Shown in pieces: positions 6,084 through 51,822 of a stretch of DNA of 64,000 nucleotides (positions are counted from its first letter, which is position 1; each line of letters opens with the position of its first letter). The DNA comes from Rhizophagus irregularis (lineage: Eukaryota; Glomeromycota; Glomeromycetes; Glomerales; Glomeraceae): assembly GCF_026210795.1 (NCBI RefSeq), contig NC_089443.1, forward strand, positions 496,001 to 560,000. The letters run 5' to 3'. The notes under the pieces were generated by a model that searched no databases, was not told the DNA's origin, and saw nothing but the letters and a program-made list of their open reading frames with translations. Position numbers and translations under genes: made by a program.

Positions 6084-9000
6084 TCAAATGAAATACATGA
6101 CATTTTGCAACTTGGGTTCCACTGTACTTAAAGTTATTTTCCCCGTAGATGACGATGATGACGATTCTTTGAAATTGTCGTCACGTAAATGAAATCGACC
6201 TCGTTTACAAGCAAGATGGGCATAATAAACGGAAGGAACTATGGAAACTGCTCGAGTACATCGTGCGTATGTATAGCACAGATTATATGATAACGTTTGA
6301 AGCGAGTCTGAAGTAAAATTGTTTTCATCGTATAGAACGTGATAATGAGTAGGCCGACACGTTCCTTGTAACCCAGCTTGACTTTGTAAATAAAAATCAA
6401 ATTCTACAGGATGAACCACTTCGGTCTCTATAAGGGTCCCAGGAAGACAGTTTCCAGTTCGGTCTGAATCTATTCTGTCAATTGGAAAAAATCGTGCGTG
6501 GTGGCGCTTTTGTACGATAACAAATGTAATTGTGGGTGAATATTCCTGTTCAAGAGAGTGGCACGCGGCTAATTATTAAGATAAAGAGGTTGAAGATAAA
6601 TAAATAAATAAAATTATTTTATTCATTTATTCAATAAGTAAAAATAAGTAACATATAAATTATAATATATACATACATTTGATTGCCCTAATTTCTTCTT
6701 CAAGTACTTGTTTAAATTGATATTCTGAAACACCATCCCTGTAAAAAAGAATTCGTTCCGGTTTTCTTCCACAAGTCTGGTAAAAAACTTTTAGTGCATC
6801 TTTGACCATGTTAGTTAAATCAGAAATGATTTCTATACGGGGCATGTGTTGCATTCTTATTGAAGCAGCATATCGAGAAGCTCCGGAATCCACGGAAGCA
6901 CAGAGAGCAGCAACCGAATAATAATCATCTGAAACGCCTGGGTGTGTCACGTCAGCGCCCATCAAAATTGAAGCCTTTTCATTAAGGAATGGATTTTGTC
7001 TTAGAGTAAGGAAAGAATTGACCCCCCCAAGTTTCGCATTAATTTTAAGACAGACATTGGAATAATATTGATTGCTAGCTTCCAACAAATATCTACTTTG
7101 AATACATTGAGTAACTACTCCAACGATTGTATCACCTACGTATTTGATAGTTCCATAAAGTTGAGAACTAGTATTTGGTAGTACACATATAATTAATTGT
7201 GGTTTTGAATTGGCGGCATGTCCAGCACGTAACCATGCTTTTTTTAAGTTCTCTTCAACATTGCCTTGAGCGTTCGCGTGTAGAATTGGTGGGCTCTTAT
7301 TGGGAATGTTCATACCAGCAATCGAACAAGCATCAATTAACTCTCGAACAAAACGTTTAACCGAATGTTCATTATCTGTTCCAAAGACTAGAATCGACCA
7401 TGAAGTAAGTATTGCGCCTGTAGCGAGTTTCTTATCCTTTAAATCCCATACTCCATATTCAGGAACGATCGAACTATAACGGTAATTAATCGTGGGTGTA
7501 GGCAATATTCTAGCTTTTACAGTGGCCATTTTATTCGACACTATCATGTTAAACTGAGTCATTTTTTCACTAGCGTAATCAATCTCTTCAACACCTCTCA
7601 TGATTTTGGCTGCACGAGAATGCGGCGATTGATATGTAAGTTTAATTATTTCGGCAGTCTGCCTGTCATTAAGTTTTCGAAAATAACGTTGATTCTAATA
7701 AAAATTAAATAGTATTAAGTAAAAATTATATACAGTAATTAGTTGGATTTCTATAAAAATAAATAATAAAAATTTACTTACTTCAATGACTTCACATACT
7801 TCCATTGGAAGAAAAATTCCCTCTCCAGCTATAACACAAGGTAAATATGGATAATCAAGGCATTTATGAGATTTTTGAAAGTATGAAGCCACATCAATTA
7901 TGTCACCGTCCGCATCATAAAATTTCGTTTGTTGAGCACTCAGAGAAGTAAATTTTAAAATACGATAAAATTGGTTGGTTTTACGATGAATAACTCGAAT
8001 TATGTAATTCTTAAGCTCTTTTTCAAGTTTATTACGTTCCCTTTCATTGATTCCTCCACGCAAGTCATTAGTACTTCGTTTTTCAAGCAATTTAACAACA
8101 ATATTGATCAAAGGACCGCTTTCACAGAACGCAGTCGCAGTCAAGTCTACATTAATCATCATTTTTCCTGTGTAATTAGAATGATATATAATATGAGCAT
8201 AGGAAATAGTTGTAAAAGTGAAGTATCAAATAATTATTACCTGGTGTAGGTCGTGCGGATTGATAATACCCTTGCCAAGCTTCAGCGATGCCGGTTAAAT
8301 TTATACGTCCATTACGTGTATAGAAAGATCTACCGCTGGGAACATAATTCACTAAAGTTTGATGTTTAATAAGAGCATTCACAAACGTGATAGCATTCAG
8401 CACGTTTGGAGTACGTTTAGCCTTGCCAACCAAATAACGCTGCAATTCATCCATATTAATTTCGTCAATTTTTTTAAGTCTGATTTTAAGAGTTCTTGGT
8501 TCGCGTTTTGTCAAAATTGAACGACTGTCAACTTCTGGAAGAGTAATATCAAAAGTGGCGGAATCTTTGAGAGGAAGAGGTTTGCAACTAAATATATTTT
8601 TATGCCCATCAAAAACGAGTGGAGTATTTTTTAACTTCTTACTATGCGAATCTTCAAATATTTGAAAAACCTTCCTAGTTAATAAGAACGGAACATCAGG
8701 TGTAATAGTTAAATCATAGTGATAAATGTTCGCCTTAGGAAGTGACGTTATTTCAAAGAAATTTGTATAAACGTGAATTTTTCGACCCTGGGTACCTAAG
8801 GAAGGTCTTTTATTAACTAAATATTCTTGTTGTGCACCCTCTCTAACAAAGTTTTCATCCGTTAATGTATGTCTAACGATTAAGTCTACACAACATTCCT
8901 CACTTCTATTATCAATTTTCAAAACTTTATAATCTGAATGTAAAACACAAATATTTACATCCATAGTAACAGTTCTATTGTCTACCATAGATACATTGTT

Positions 9001-12000
9001 ATCTCTGAATATTTGAAAATAAATGAAATTTTTCGACCAATTAACGAATTTTAAACCATGGCCTAAAAATGGATAGTATATATTAGCAAAAATGGAATCC
9101 CCTTTCGCCAATTGATGAGAAGTTTTAATTGGATAATAAGAATTATCAATGCCAAGTCGTACTGTAACTTGTGTTTTTATATAACTAACATGTAATTCTC
9201 GATTCCTTGGACTAAATACTTTTAAATTTGAAGGAATTCCAACAATTATCCATGAAACATAGCATTCTTTGATATTAATATTTGATTCTGATAGTGGAAT
9301 TATCTCTATGGAGAATGCATCATAGCAGTTTGCATAAAATTTAACGAAGAAATTCTCCATTCTTGTATTATCTTTTGAGATAATTGATCCAAAAACTACA
9401 AAATTATTTCCATTAAAATTAAAATGCACTTTTGTGCTTATATATTTGCGATAAATTTTATTATCAGTTGAAACTAAATCTTTCAAATCATCAATTCCCG
9501 TCAGGATAATTTTATAATTGTCTTTTATATTTAATACATAATCTATTTTCTTTTGTTGTTCTAACTCAAGAAGACGATGTGTGGAAATTATGTTATCCAA
9601 TTCAACAATCTCCAAATCATCATTTGTATATTTAGATAAATAATTTGATAAATTCTCTACTTCAACACATTTATCACCTTTCCCAAGAAAATATGTAACA
9701 TTAAAATCAACTAAATATTCCTTTAAAGATTCAAGTGGATTTGCTCCTAAATCTTTCTTTCCAACAAGAGTTTCTGAGTCTTTAGCAAGGTAGGCGATTA
9801 GTAAAGTATGTCTGTATAACTTTCCTAAAACTATTCTTGTTGGAAAAAATTGTCCATATTCATCAAATAAATTTTGCAAATCTGTAAATGGCGTCATGCT
9901 TTCAATGGCTTTTTCTGCAGCTTGTTTAAATTCTTCTGATGGTTTAATGGAATTTAAAGAAATCACATATTGTTCACATTTAATCATAAGATGTCCTAAA
10001 CTTTGCAACTTTTCAACATCTTTAGGTGTGATTACCCCTTTAACAAATTGAAGAGATTCCACATCCTTAATTGAAAATATTTCTCTAGAAATAAATAATT
10101 CTTCCAAAGTTGTTGTAGGAATTGCAATTTCCACATAAGTTTTATTAATTATATCTATATCAGGGATATTAACGAAATTGAAAGCAATTTTGCTACTATA
10201 TTTTGATGTGAAATTTTTACTAAATATTAGACCTTGAAGAAGATGAAATTCTTTAATCCATCTCATTAAACTATAATGTAATGAATTTCTAATCCACGTT
10301 TCTAAACTCATTTTCTTTTTAAAATTAACAACTCCAGGTTGTTTTCCATTTGCAAATGATGAAATATCAAAATTTAATTCAGAGAGAGGAATTAAGTCAT
10401 TATAAAAGATCACGTCAAGTTCTTTTTCATTAAGTTCTTTTTCTTGATATAAATTATTCATCCACTCGATTAATTCTTCGGGGTTATTTAAGCTTTTTTC
10501 ATCAAATGTTCTTATTTTCGGAAAAAAATTTAAACTGAAAAAATCATTAAATTGATTTTTTACGATAGATTTTGCTGAATCAAGCGCCCAAATTAGAAAT
10601 AATTTAAAAGTATAAATTTGTTTTGATGTGAATGATGAAAGATTATCAATATATAATCTTTGACCAATTATAAATCGTTTTGAGAACACCAAGTGGTCGT
10701 ACATTCCTTTCTCATTATTTGAAAAAGATTTTAGCGAATCAACATCATTAACATTAAAAGTGAATTCAATGATAGGAAGATCAATACATGTGTCTGATGG
10801 TTTTAAATCTTCATTGAAACTTATGAAATTTCTATCATTTATTGAGGTATATACTGAATGTTGAATATCTTTATGAAATTTTGCATTTTTTAATTCAACA
10901 CTTTCAACGAGTACGGCAGCTTGTTTACCGAGTTTTATGTCATATCCATCAATGAATAATCCATGATCCAATTTATAATCTTTAAGTATTTGATGCCCAG
11001 TATATGTAAGAATTGCCGTAACAACTTCGTGAATTGTTGGTCTCATATCTGGAACGCCGTTCCAAGATTCTATAGAATTAAAAAATATGGTTTATTATTT
11101 AAAACTGTAATATTCGAATGCTTTACTATTAAAATAATTAACTTACTTGTGTAAATATTGGAGTATTCTTCAGGTGTACCCTCTACTATATTTTCTCTTA
11201 ATCCTTGTGCAATTTCTTTAGCCAAATTAGCATCATATTCTCTATCAGAAAAAGGTATTTTTCCACTATACAGTTCCCAAAGTAATACTCCGACGCTATA
11301 AACATTACATTTTTTTAACTTTTCTATTTGTTTTGATGAGTACCACTTTTCAACTTTAATATTAAATACTTCTGGAGCGTCATAAGGTAATGTATCATAT
11401 GAAATTTTGTTTTTGTTTTTAATGCGTCTGCTTAAACCAAAATCTGATATTCTTATTGAATCTTGATGTACGAGTATATTGTTTGAATTTAAGTCTTCGT
11501 GTACTACCCCATTATTATGCATAGAACGTATTGCATTTGATATTTCACAAGCAAATCTGCATTTAATTTCCCAACCCATTAAAGAAAATCTCTCGTTTAA
11601 ATAATTACGAAGTGTTCTCCCTTCCGTATAACTCATTACTAATAAACATTCGTCTATAATAAATAAAAATAAATATTAATTTTAGAAAGTCTTATTGATA
11701 TTAATGCTTTAAAGTCATATTTACTTGAATCAGACTCAGTTATCCCAGAGAAATTTAATATATGTTCTTGAATTCCAACTTTTTTATGTAACTTTATCTA
11801 TAAAAATCAAATTATTTTTAGCATGAATGAATTTCTTAAAAAAAAAAGGGCTTCATTATATACCTCGCGGATAATTTCTTTTGTAACAGTGACATTATCT
11901 GAATTAAACGATTTTAGTGTTTTTGCATATAACTTGTACATATTTGCTTTATACATTTTATTATTAACTGATCCACAGTCCATTTCTTCTATGTCAGAGA

Positions 12001-12103
12001 AGAATCTTTCATATGAGAAATAATATTCACCATTCTGTATTGTATATTTTTCTATCGAAAATGCATTATCAGTTCCAGTATACACATTGGATGATGAAGC
12101 CAT
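6084..12103 (-). CDS. Kinase - MACPF-like - Argonaute fusion protein
   Basis: Seven exons on the minus strand (12103-11864, 11797-11725, 11653-11147, 11069-8241, 8167-7782, 7694-6677, 6568-6084) join through GT-AG introns of 66-108 bp into 1845 residues. Residues ~35-290 are a Tyr-kinase-like domain: lysine ~64, HED 156-158 in place of HRD, N163, DFG 175-177, APE 197-199, and a degenerate glycine loop. Residues ~300-1010 resemble the MACPF-like/DUF7431 family (YGQFFPT at 678-684). Residues ~1020-1845 are a full Argonaute: N domain ([10 protein letters not shown]), L1, PAZ, MID and PIWI with D1593 (GADVTHPG), E1633, D1665 (FYRDGVSE) and H1802 (YYAHL). This is the complete slicer tetrad known from the family. 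The join between the middle and Argonaute lies inside one 2829-bp exon with no stop, so the fusion is read directly. An internal promoter making Argonaute alone cannot be excluded. Confidence 0.85.
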
Positions 12104-39478: not shown

Positions 39479-42400
39479 TTACATAATATCAGGGAACCAA
39501 GTTTTCCAACGTCTTTGATGCGGAAACAAATAAAATAATTCAATTTCTCTAAGAATCTATTATAAAAAAACAAAGTTAACATTTTAGAACTAATTATATC
39601 AAGATTCATTATAATCATCATCACTAACCAATGCTTTTTGTGCTAAATAAGACGCTCGATTATTATCCGCCTCAATAGCCATATTCAGTAATCCGATGAA
39701 CAAATTCATAAGGTACACAACAACAACAAATGAAAAAATTATCATCAATATTATCATTAATGGATTTTCATTCGGTGACCACGCTGATAAAGAGTTTCTA
39801 TCTCCTATTAAATTATATTTTATAAATATTGTTAATAATAGATTAATGATTTTATTTTCTTTTTAGTACATTACCTGTAAGAAATAAATACATAGAAAGA
39901 AGTGAATTAGGGTAGTTAGAAAATAAATTGGTATATCCATCAGGTTCTTCAATTAGAATTGCATTTTTAATGATATTTCCATCTTCTGTCATTTGATGAT
40001 ATTTTTTCGTAAGCGACCAAGGATTATTAGGATCATTCAAATTTCCTTGTTCACTTTCAGAAAAATCTGATTTTGGTTCTAATAGTATAAAAAGTGCATG
40101 TGCGAATCCAAGTATAATAATAAGAATAATAAAAAGAAAAGAAATAATTCTTTTAGCAACACCTATAATAATAGCAAAATAGATTCCAAAAGATTCAAAT
40201 GCTCTAAAGAAAAGTAAAAATTTTATATCAAGCAAAAGACATGAAACTGAAATAGCTTTTGTATAGTCTGCGTTATCTCCATCTACATAGCTATTAATAC
40301 AGTATATAGAAGTTAAAACAGGTACAAGGTATGCACTAAGATCTATATAAATTAAATCATGAATAAGTATTATTCTTTAGAAAATGCTTTACTATTAAAA
40401 AATTTAATTACCAAACAAATTCCATATTTCAGATATCCATCTAAATGGGCTCCAAATAAATTGACGAACTTCAAATAATAAGTGAACAAATCCAAGAATA
40501 ATTGAGGAAAAGAAAAGCTTTTTTCTAACTTCCTTATTAAAGATATCATAAGGGATTGATGCCAATGTAAAACATGTAAGGTAAATTATGAATAAAATCC
40601 AGATTCCAGCATAATAATATCTACCAAACACTCTCCATTTAAAATTAATAATAGCTTCACCATTCCAAGTTTTATAAAGATCATTATTTTGTGTTTGTGA
40701 AAAAGGGCTTGATTGAGGTTTGATTAATAATTCTTTAAGAAAATTATAATCTTTTGGATATGTTACATAACCGGGGAATGGAACTAAAAATGTAAGCTTT
40801 GGTTTTGTCTTTCGTTCATTAAAGATAATTTTGATAAAATAGGCACAAATAGTGAAGCATATAAAGAATATGTGAATTCCAAATTCGTCAACTAGAATAC
40901 CTAATAAGTCAAGAAAGTCAAGAAAGTAACTACTAGTGTTTATTGTTAATAATAAACTATGAATAAAATAATAATTATGAATGCTAAACATTAATGATAG
41001 AAATACCAATTGAAATTTAAGTGATTCATAATATTTTATAAAGTATGTAACAATAAGAACAAAAATAATCGCGGAAATTTCGTGTTCATCTAATACAGCA
41101 ATTATAATTAAGCCAAGAATGCCAATAATATATATAAGGAATACTAATATTGGGTGTGATTTATAGTATTTTCTAAGGGATATATTCATTACAATCATAA
41201 TATCCACCGATTTTACTGAATTGAAACCAAAAGTTTGAGAAATACATGCCATATACATTAATTGTGTTTGTGATTTCCAATATTTCCAGGAGAATAAAAT
41301 CATAATAATTCCATCTGTAAAAAAACAAAGTGTTGCAATGACATATAACATATATAACAGAAGCACTAATTGTGGACGTGATTTCCAATATTTCCTGAAG
41401 AATAGAATAATAATGGTGGTAGTGTCTAGTATGTAGTGCATGTAGTAGGGATAGTCGTAATAAAAGGAACTTTCAAAAATAATTTCATAAAGGAATAATA
41501 TAACAATATAAGATAATACTAGTCGATATAATTGTGATTTCAAAAAATTTGACAACTTTGAAAATAATGTATAAAGAAAAGTCAAGATAGTAATATATAA
41601 TTTATGAAGAAAATAATATATTATAAATGTATATTTAAGTATTTTTAATTCATTACAATAAGAATAAAGATGTTGGAGGTTATTATAAATCATGTTTGAA
41701 TTTGTATCTGCAAACAAATTCATTTCATCATAGTATTTCGATAAGAATTCAAAATAATTTTGATTTAAATATGGCATATTCTTACATAATAGTGATAGTA
41801 TATAAATATTATTTTTCGGATCTTCTTTGAAATATTCAAGAGTTTTGTTATAGATTGATTCAATTAACTCTATATTATGTTGTTTTATTGCTGATTTTAA
41901 TAGGTTCTCTCCATAATAAATTAAAAAGTATCTTTGATTTATTTCATACAAGATCCATTGCTTTTTTAATCCATTATTATCTGTAGGTTGAGCTATTTCT
42001 TTAATTTCCTCGATTTTTAAAGCATCTGGTTTATTATTATTATAGAGCCTAAATGCATATTTAAGAAATTTAATATTATAACAACATTGCATTTCAATCT
42101 TATAAAATGCTGTATTGAAAATGTAAATATGTAACTCTGTCTCATCATATAAAATGTAAGTATTATTAACTTTTATGTCTTTCCAACTTTTAGAATATTT
42201 AATATTGTACGAAGATACAATTTCGTTTTGGGATGAATTATTAATAAAAGCCTCTAAAATAAATTCATTTTTTCTTAATCTCATGTCATATCCACTTTGA
42301 TTTTCATTTGAGTTTACTAAATTTGGTATAACGTACTTTTCTATAAACTCAGTTTCGTCTTTTGCTGCAGTAAATTGTTTTCCTATATTATAAAAGATGT

Positions 42401-43721
42401 TTCCATTGATTGAATCTTTGCTTTTGTTAATTTCTTCCGAATCAATATAGTTATTATTAATTATATAATTTTCCAAATCGCACTTTTTTATATTAATCAT
42501 CCATGGTTTTTCATAGAATATTCCAAATACTTTTCGATCATTAAGTCTAAATTGTATATTATTAAAATAATTAAAGTAATTAGAATTACCATTAGTTTCA
42601 AGAAAAGATTTTATCATGGTATTGTATTTTGTTGAATTTTCCAAATTTGTCCCTACAATAATTTTAATTATAAAATCCATCCTATCAGAATAAATATAAT
42701 GTATGCCTTCAATACTTATAACCATTAACGGCTTAAGATATTTTAATTCTATCATTTTAGTATCTACATTTCCCTATAAATAAAGAATAAATATTATAAA
42801 TATTGAGATCAAAGACAGTATCAATGTTATTATTAATTTTAGTATTAATATTAAGATTATACAATTATACATACATTTATCTTAAGCATAATTTTCCGAT
42901 ATTGGAATGTAAATAAATCTAATATAAATATGGCATCCTTTGATAACATCCATACCATATCATTAGTAATTCCACCAAAATTAATTTCCATTGTATCGTC
43001 GAGTTCATATGTAGATTTGCATTTCCAGATATTACCTTTAGTATTTGAAGAATAAATTAGAATAACAGGTTCCCTCCTAATCGTTTGACTCTTAAATCCT
43101 TTACTTTCAATAATATTATAAGTAATTAAATCTCCACTTGTAAGAAAATTTGTAAATTTGTAATATGGGATGTTAAATTCATATTTGTCATCTGCATATT
43201 TTTTTACACTTGAATTGAGAGTAATTTTCTTTTTATTTTTCATATCATAGATAATTGCTACAGAAAGGTAAAAATTTTTCTTATCAATAAAATAAAATTT
43301 CTTAATTACTGAAATACAATTTGAAAAATAATTTACCTAATTCATCGTTACTCTCATACATTAAAATCTTATCATCAGAGACTTTATAATCCAAAATATC
43401 TAAATCTAAATTATATGGTTGGACTTTGTCGTCAACGATAAGCGGTCCTGTATCATCATCATCATTATCATCATTAAACTCGTCGTCTTGATTGTCTTTG
43501 ATATCAAAAGACAATCCAATAAACGGGTTTATATTATTCTTAATATATTCGGAACAAAAATTTTTCTTTCGGATATCTTTACAAACTTTACTACACCATC
43601 CAACAAAAGATTTGTCTTCTTGACTATATGTCATGATATATTTTGACTGTGGAGAAATTGCAATTTTAGTTATCGGCTTTCCATTGTGCGGAATTTCTTC
43701 AACTTTGACAGTATGATCCAT
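39479..43721 (-). CDS. WD-like/ion-transport-domain channel protein
   Basis: Six exons (43721-43337, 43257-42875, 42773-40412, 40342-39875, 39804-39629, 39556-39479) join with consistent phases to 1283 residues. The N-terminus (ITKIAISPQSKYIMTYS; VGWCSKV) looks like a WD/beta-propeller blade, then an acidic run (DDNDDDD). The middle holds a long soluble part and many hydrophobic helices. The C-terminal part has the ion-transport hallmarks: helix IISFLFIILIIILGFAHAL, a pore-like NPWSLT...LTGN segment, and an S6-like helix VVVYLMNLFIGLLNMAIE, ending PHQRRWKTWFPDIM. TRP-like cation channels have this layout, and a large family of such fusions exists in Rhizophagus. Membrane-located; gating and ion unknown. 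Last-exon frame and junction agree with the family ending, which supports the model. Confidence 0.8.
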
Positions 43722-50422: not shown

Positions 50423-51822
50423 ATGGAAAATATGAAAGATGGTATAGAAAATATAAAAATTACAAAAAATGATACAAGTGAAAGATGCCCAGAATGTGGT
50501 CAAGAATTTATCAATAAAATTTTATCTTATTGTAAGCCATGTTATTCGGCACATTTCCGTAATAACTTTACTTACTGGACCAGTGGTAATTTAAATATTG
50601 ATGAACTAATTCAAAATTCACAACTCAACGCGAATGATAAATATGAATTAATTGAATGGATTGAATATTCAAATTTTAAAGATGTTGAATTTGTTGCTAA
50701 TGGTGGGTTTGGGAGTGTTTATAAAGCCATCTGGCAAGATGGTCCAATTGAAGAACCCTTTTGGAATATCAAAAAATCTGAATGGAATCGTAATAGCTTC
50801 AAGGAAGTGGCAATAAAAAAATTCCGAAATGCAACAAGTGTTAGCTTGGAGTTTTTAAAGGAGGTAAAAGATCTAATTACTCTTTGTTATTAAAAAGAAT
50901 ACTCACATAATCTAATATTTTATTGCAGGTTAGGAGTAACTTAATGTTAAATTACTCAACACATTGTAATGGAATTTATGGAGTGACTTGTGATCCTCAA
51001 AACGGAGAATATGCAATTGTCGCTAAATTCCAAAATGATGGCAATCTGAGGGAAATGATTAAAAAAAACTACAGTATCCTGAATTGGAGAGTGATTATTA
51101 AAATCCTTCATAATATCAGCAATGGATTATATATTGTTCATAATAAAAATTATCTCCACAGAGATCTCCACAGTGGTAATATTTTAAATAAATTGAAAAA
51201 TGATCCTAATCTTAGTATCTCAGTGATTTCGGATTTTGGTTTATGTTGTCCCGCAAATCAAAGTTCTGAAGATAAGCCATTATATGGTGTCTTACCGTTT
51301 GTTGCTCCAGAAGTTTTACGTGGTGGGGAGTTTACCAATGCAGCAGACATTTATGGGTTTGGGATGCTAATGTCAGAAATAATCAATGGCAACGCACCTT
51401 TTGTTGATAGAGATTATGACTTGCACTTAGCACTAGATATTTGTGGAGGAGAGCGTCCATTAATTCCAGAATATACACCTGAGCCATATGCAGCCTTGAT
51501 GAAATGTTGCTGGGATCCTATTCCTACCAATCGTCCATCAGCTAATGAATTGCTTGTGCAAACTGGAAACTGGGAAAAAATTATATGTAAATTCGAGTTC
51601 AGAGATAGTCAATTGACAGAAGAATTTAGCCAGGAACGGGAGGACATATGGAAAGCACGATTAGCAGAATTGGCTATAAATCCACATCCTTTGAAAATAT
51701 CACAAAACATGCTTACTAGTAAACGACTTTATTATTCTAAACAGCTCACACAATTACTTGAAACCAAGGATGTTGAAATGAAAACAAATGGTAATAGTAC
51801 ATTATATGCTTTATATCTTTGA
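50423..51822 (+). CDS. Zinc-knuckle Tyr-kinase-like protein kinase
   Basis: Exons 50423-50863 and 50929-51822, joined by GTAAAA...TTGCAG in phase 0, give 444 residues. An N-terminal CPECGQEF...CKPCYSAHF zinc knuckle is followed by the kinase domain. All key motifs are present: GGFGSV glycine loop, VAIKKF lysine, HRDLHSGN, DFG and APEVL, and a subdomain XI CCWDPIPTNRPSA. So it should be an active kinase. The C-terminal ~90 residues, with WKARLAELAINPHPLKISQNM then TSKRLYYSKQL, are the family's typical tail. It has the same intron position as the kinase at 34749, so the two are paralogues. Substrate unknown. Confidence 0.9.

Follow-up and report, generated by a model that had tools for sequence, protein, structure and literature searches.

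A predicted single-chain fusion of a protein kinase, a MACPF-like module and a slicer-type Argonaute in Rhizophagus irregularis, from a gene family with exchangeable C-terminal parts

Does the arbuscular mycorrhizal fungus Rhizophagus irregularis encode a protein kinase, a MACPF-like region and an Argonaute (AGO) in a single polypeptide, and if so, what might such a protein do? The question is raised by a minus-strand gene in a stretch of 64,000 nucleotides (contig NC_089443.1, positions 496,001 to 560,000 of the forward strand, RefSeq assembly GCF_026210795.1), referred to here as the window and numbered from its first letter. A first-pass annotation of this stretch had read the gene as seven exons giving one chain, placed the switch from MACPF-like to AGO sequence inside a single exon, and described the arrangement as not known to it. 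We examine in turn the integrity of the predicted chain, its three parts, its relatives elsewhere in the genome, and the explanations that might account for it.

We found that splicing of the gene (12103-6084) joins seven exons into 1845 codons and a stop codon with no internal stop; all six introns are GT-AG and measure 66-108 bp each. The switch from kinase/MACPF-like to AGO sequence falls at about residues 1015-1026, within the stop-free 2829-bp exon 4, and the chance of 943 stop-free codons at the base composition of this exon is about 7e-37. A linker of about 11 residues separates the last family-conserved residues of the module (about 1014) from the first AGO similarity (about 1026). GC content at third codon positions (GC3) is 0.18 in the module and 0.26-0.27 in the AGO part, a step that would be expected if two sources had been joined. 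In the frame as read there is no methionine between residues 976 and 1146, and no start codon lies near the junction; the free-standing paralogs that were read start with their own methionine at about that point, among them L017, whose start methionine shortly precedes the sequence matching the window AGO. A 227-base junction query is found at one place in the 146.7-Mb assembly (32 contigs), the one assembly used for all genome comparisons here; that place lies within a 4.94-Mb contig, and the 64-kb window contains no N. The junction is in frame. The fusion of kinase, MACPF-like region and AGO in one predicted chain is thus confirmed, as are the earlier placement of the switch within one exon and, as set out below, the earlier identification of each part. 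The features are listed in Table 1.

Table 1. Parts of the fusion gene and its nearby partial copy, in window coordinates (exons from the splice model)
Feature	Position	Strand	Content or basis
Exon 1	11864..12103	-	Start codon, kinase N-lobe
Exon 2	11725..11797	-	Kinase
Exon 3	11147..11653	-	Kinase; HED 156-158, N163, DFG 175
Exon 4	8241..11069	-	2829 bp, stop-free: kinase end, probable twin MACPF-like module, conserved tail, linker, AGO N-terminal part
Exon 5	7782..8167	-	AGO L1/PAZ
Exon 6	6677..7694	-	AGO PAZ end, L2, MID, Piwi; D1593, E1633, D1665
Exon 7	6084..6568	-	Piwi end with H1802, stop
Protein kinase domain	11020..11974	-	Residues 44-290, exons 1-4; Pfam Pkinase, 119 bits, above cut-off
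First MACPF-like repeat (probable)	10267..11010	-	Residues ~294-541; hhalign of module halves
Second MACPF-like repeat (probable)	9511..10269	-	Residues ~541-793; family profile against pleurotolysin B
Family-conserved tail of module	8848..9510	-	Residues ~794-1014; 16-sequence module alignment
Junction linker	8815..8847	-	Residues 1015-1025
AGO part	6084..8814	-	Residues 1026-1845
Inverted, truncated, frame-broken copy of the gene's 5' half	17460..19100	+	Kinase and module start, no AGO

A Pfam search of the spliced protein places the kinase and all six AGO domains above their cut-offs, the latter in the order ArgoN (1036-1173), ArgoL1, PAZ, ArgoL2, ArgoMid and Piwi (1512-1812). Alignment to human AGO2 identifies the D-E-D-H tetrad as D1593, E1633, D1665 and H1802, and shows that the pocket for the guide 5'-phosphate is kept (Y1525, K1529, Q1541, K1562 and K1566); we take the slicer and guide-binding roles of these aligned residues to be those of the human protein. 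By its residues, the predicted AGO is therefore complete and of the slicer type. Among the 21 AGO rows compared, the nearest to it is the free-standing L017, with 68% identity over 812 columns, although the placement of the two side by side in the tree is not strongly supported. Over 338 codons of exon 6 the proportions of synonymous (pS) and nonsynonymous (pN) differences between them are 0.504 and 0.181. Elsewhere in the genome, two loci on contig C30 (L019 and L020) hold an array of five AGO genes in which the slicer residues differ by copy (for example S-E-D-H, D-E-D-S and S-E-N-R).

The kinase retains the HED motif, the following asparagine and the DFG motif; of these, H156-D158, N163 and D175 align to TNNI3K, its best PDB match. 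The VAxK lysine (K61) and the aC glutamate (E80) also appear to be kept, both being placed by eye. The kinase and the start of the module recur in an inverted copy that lies head to head with the gene at a distance of 5.4 kb, introns included, in blocks that are 85-96% complementary.

In the middle of the window protein, taken alone, MACPF_1 scores 19.2 bits, below its Pfam gathering score of 27.5, and the model stays under cut-off in the module wherever it was matched in full-length single-member scans. It matches 14 of 16 family members at E<=0.1, and when the profile of the 16 aligned members was compared with the PDB, all eight distinct sequences found at E<=1 were pleurotolysin B (best E 1.2e-9), which agrees with the MACPF-like middle first proposed. 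The first and second parts of the module match one another (hhalign probability 96.4, E 1e-9, 205 columns); as a control, the last third of the module matches neither half (probability 0.1 each). Compared with the second MACPF domain of a family member, L012, the module profile gave a probability of 78 over 143 columns. The middle is thus probably a pair of divergent MACPF-like repeats with a conserved tail behind them.

A search of the assembly with the module gave at least 70 matches, which were merged by hand to at least 56 loci, 23 of them on contig C28 and 21 on C15. These 56 loci, like the 43 AGO loci considered below, are hand-merged counts and hence lower bounds (candidates scored 60/122, 55/204 and 106/106). 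The search for C-terminal parts, or tails, covered 37 of these loci (the window gene, L001-L016 and L032-L051); the inverted half-copy is counted among the 56 and has no tail by its truncation, and 18 further loci lie outside the tail search. Downstream, 16 loci were searched over about 4-5 kb and another 20 over 2.3 kb, by similarity to tail types already seen, together with Pfam scans of some members. Recognised tails are present in 21 of the 37 loci, and in one more an AGO stands beside a broken module. Two loci, the window gene and L001, carry an AGO tail; five carry Sel1 repeats (L005, L015 and L016, and, after a second kinase, L034 and L041); another five carry leucine-rich repeats (LRR) and a coil (L007, L008, L010, L036 and L043); and seven carry a kinase with a bundle related to the MLKL-like one of L040 (L003, L004, L032, L033, L035, L040 and L051). 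The two remaining tails are a second MACPF with DUF7431 (L012) and a guanylate-binding-protein (GBP) GTPase (L048). Pfam MLKL_N is above cut-off only in L040, and the LRR model in none of the three members scanned. Module and tail share one open frame in 11 loci (two with AGO, three with Sel1, three with LRR, one with the second MACPF, and L003 and L004). From these comparisons the predicted window gene is an AGO-bearing member of a modular kinase/MACPF-like family with an exchangeable C-terminal module. Two members merit separate mention. In L012 (L012:749-5308) the MACPF of the tail, which is accompanied by DUF7431, is above cut-off, so that this one protein may hold three MACPF-like units; the GTPase of L048 (L048:510-1895, 84.5 bits) follows the module gene on the same strand.

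The other AGO-bearing member, L001 on contig C28, has a kinase part, the module and an AGO in one stop-free frame of 1827 residues; further upstream, inspection by eye suggests a kinase N-lobe. Its AGO aligns to human AGO2 over nearly its whole length and is 86% identical to a free-standing AGO, L023, as against 32% to the window AGO. Likewise, among 16 modules, that of L001 is nearest to the module of L013 (67%) and only 38% identical to that of the window gene. In a tree of 21 AGO rows, anchored to the window AGO and drawn from at least 43 loci, grouping the window AGO with that of L001 was rejected (p-AU 1.1e-5, approximately unbiased test), as was grouping all three module-linked AGOs (p-AU 5.6e-61). 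A single old AGO fusion is rejected by these tests. Since the two fused AGOs come from different clades and a shared origin is rejected, at least two independent captures are required, and the AGO is, on this comparative evidence, a captured C-terminal module acquired at least twice.

The junction in L001 lies near the AGO's own start, where GC3 steps from 0.14 to 0.33 and a methionine stands close to the old AGO start. The L001 tetrad reads S-E-N-R, while that of its sister L023 reads D-E-D-H; the L001 kinase reads HGN, and the guide pocket is kept. On the AGO branches omega, the nonsynonymous to synonymous rate ratio, is about 0.35 for L001 (59 nonsynonymous and 44 synonymous changes) and 0.33 for L023 (55 and 44), where for L001 two further changes read as stops when placed singly and part of the branch may predate the fusion. 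The module occurs within 200 kb in three of the at least 43 AGO loci, and in all three the AGO comes immediately after it in the same orientation; under uniform placement about 0.008 would be expected within 1 kb, a rough figure, since the genes cluster. In the third of these loci (L002:3487-8823, contig C9) the AGO lies about 200 bp past the stop of the module frame. We did not accept it as a third working fusion, as its module is broken, the stretch examined upstream yielded no kinase, and the AGO has its own start (L002:5626); its tetrad is D-G-N-H. L002 may be a decayed third fusion.

What, then, might the predicted protein do? We think it most likely, with a decoy function discussed below close behind, that small RNAs provide an input to a kinase/MACPF response in this AGO-bearing member of the family, a tentative reading to which we give rather less than an even chance. 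The AGO part would be loaded with small guide RNAs, and the input would be the pairing of a guide with its target, an RNA of viral, transposon or foreign nuclear origin. The attached kinase/MACPF-like part would turn this input into a response, which may include phosphorylation, assembly at a membrane and possibly local cell death, and the window copy could additionally slice its target. L001, which is pseudokinase-like and slicer-dead by residues, may only bind and report, or may act as a regulatory partner. This explanation draws on the single frame, the intact AGO and kinase residues, the tails of the family, the two captures, and an adjacency of AGO and module above chance. Roles in cell defence are known for MACPF and GBP proteins. 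In other systems, RIPK kinases and bundles of the MLKL type take part in regulated cell death (PMC12881547, PMC10197012). By analogy with these roles, a function in defence or allorecognition is plausible for the family. A broader proposal, possible but on the unlikely side, is that the clustered family, with its twin MACPF-like core and exchangeable tails, into which AGOs have been plugged at least twice, is an unrecognised eukaryotic defence or allorecognition system in which RNA recognition is wired to a kinase and membrane-type response, with one active and one signalling-only version.

Several observations weigh against the guide-input reading, or against the family on which it builds. 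The glycine-rich loop of the window kinase looks degenerate by eye. Among nine other family kinases read (L001, L003, L004, L005, L008, L010, L012, L015 and L016), seven depart at HxD, N or DFG, and only L004 and L005 keep all three. L001 has itself lost kinase and slicer residues; taken together with the other departing kinases, this indicates that the kinase and slicer activities may be dispensable. The L001 frame also seems to run through a kinase intron, and PAZ and ArgoL2 fall below their Pfam cut-offs in this protein. Comparison of the window gene with the inverted half-copy gives a pN/pS of 1.02 (55 nonsynonymous and 13 synonymous differences), which offers no evidence of recent constraint on the kinase half. 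In the module, the MACPF signature has a change at its second glycine, as judged by eye, and the stretch between the core strands is shorter in the family profile than in pleurotolysin B, which makes pore formation doubtful; a single-sequence AlphaFold model of the module reached a pLDDT of 29.5 and was not used. No tail of the types sought was recognised in 15 of the 37 loci (L006, L009, L011, L013, L014, L037-L039, L042, L044-L047, L049 and L050), and 10 of the 21 recognised tails stand in an exon after that of the module, where the unity of the gene is assumed. Finally, published accounts of AGO expression differ: PMC11075540 reports strong expression of a single AGO-like gene, with minimal or no expression of the others, whereas PMC6399891 reports expression of 27 of 40 under one or both of two conditions.

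The evidence must also be set against other explanations, of which the closest is that the AGO serves as an integrated decoy, a bait in an immune-like receptor, such that a viral or microbial suppressor targeting AGO trips the kinase/MACPF part. That L001 lost its slicer residues, yet has an intact guide pocket and is constrained to about the same degree as its free-standing sister, would fit a bait well, as would the independent capture of two AGO clades and a family that bears different tails and is concentrated on two contigs; plant immune receptors with integrated domains offer a precedent (PMC4759953). Yet the window copy retains D-E-D-H, which a decoy does not need, and that the family acts as receptors is itself conjecture. 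We also know of no AGO-targeting suppressor for this fungus, no search for one having been made, and this counts against a decoy, which we consider unlikely. A more conservative alternative is that the kinase/MACPF-like part serves only to anchor the AGO to a membrane or to control it through phosphorylation, the output being ordinary silencing by RNA interference. AGOs tolerate N-terminal extensions, and the slicer, guide pocket and kinase residues of the window copy are intact; L001, however, should not slice, judging by its residues, and several unrelated tails sit on the same scaffold, which is thus not AGO-specific. Regulated silencing of this kind seems improbable to us.

We give the same low standing to the view that transposon-rich clusters shuffle genes and that the fusions are unhelpful by-products heading to decay. 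The broken half-copy close by, the broken module of L002, the pN/pS of the half-copy comparison and MULE transposable elements reported near AGO genes (PMC8647823) are all consistent with it, but both frames are fully open over 1845 and 1827 codons, whole modules are joined at both junctions, the AGO of L001 shows low omega (with the reservation made above about its branch), and the adjacency of AGO and module is far above uniform expectation. That one scaffold has captured different AGOs more than once suggests use rather than accident. Might the gene instead give two products, an internal promoter yielding a separate AGO while the fused frame is rarely translated? A promoter within the module coding sequence is conceivable, and the methionine near the old AGO start of L001 is in keeping with it. 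In the window gene, however, a free-standing start such as that of L017 is absent, and given the methionine-free stretch a separate AGO would have to start from M968 or M976 in the module or lose most of its N domain; we regard this as very unlikely. An artefact of joining in the assembly is least credible of all and close to negligible, given that the junction is in frame, occurs once in the genome, inside a long contig free of N in the window, and has a second in-frame counterpart of the same modules in L001. Guide input to the kinase/MACPF-like part remains the reading we favour.

The surroundings of the gene contain other open frames. In this fungal genome, the frame at 28246-29169 scores above cut-off (29.6 bits) for a restriction endonuclease domain of the Mrr type; three more near the gene (30780-32498, 35199-36104 and 50911-51822) comprise one with LRR and two with further kinases; and an open frame of 789 residues (40404-42773) has no Pfam match at E<=0.001. 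An Rfam scan of the window gave no match.

Relative to the first-pass annotation, the sequence comparisons add the probable twin MACPF-like module, the family with exchangeable tails and the second, independent AGO fusion. Its remark that the arrangement was not known still stands: literature searches on Argonaute with MACPF, Argonaute-kinase fusion and Rhizophagus returned no description of such an architecture, judging by listings and the opening parts of abstracts. The Rhizophagus AGO-like proteins have been catalogued as 40 genes, 25 of them complete (PMC6399891); the words 'kinase' and 'MACPF' are absent from the main text of that paper, though the Pfam drawings of its Fig. 2, unseen by us, might show a kinase fusion. 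According to PMC11075540, some AGO-like copies may carry additional domains. The window AGO resembles the catalogued proteins in its complete N-L1-PAZ-L2-MID-Piwi order with D-E-D-H, and differs from the free-standing paralogs read, which begin near the junction point, in following a kinase and a MACPF-like module. Should the protein be made as read, it would place a eukaryotic AGO within a protein of signalling or pore type and so couple the recognition of RNA to an outcome different from silencing, and this may help to explain the dozens of AGO genes in arbuscular mycorrhizal fungi.

Comparison with pleurotolysin B, a fungal MACPF protein, aligns positions 247-496 of the family profile to its residues 10-297; the module here is divergent, apparently doubled, shorter between the core strands, and fused to a kinase and tails. 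With the RIPK/MLKL proteins of necroptosis the family shares kinase similarity (RIPK1 and MLKL are among the structures in the PDB that the L001 kinase matches) and, in some members, an MLKL_N-like bundle, whereas Pfam scans found no MLKL-like bundle in the AGO-bearing members. Prokaryotic Argonautes coupled to toxic effectors may offer a further parallel, in that a guide-dependent AGO is paired with a possible membrane or killing effector; what differs here is a long eukaryotic slicer-type AGO in one chain with the kinase and MACPF-like module. The closest parallel in organisation may be with the nucleotide-binding leucine-rich repeat receptors (NLRs) of fungi and plants that carry integrated domains, which resemble this family in a constant core, exchangeable modules and clustered expansion. 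They differ in their core, which here is kinase/MACPF-like, with no Pfam match to NB-ARC or NACHT in the window protein at E<=1. This would be a receptor-like family with swapped modules, open to testing, that can be set beside the fungal NLRs.

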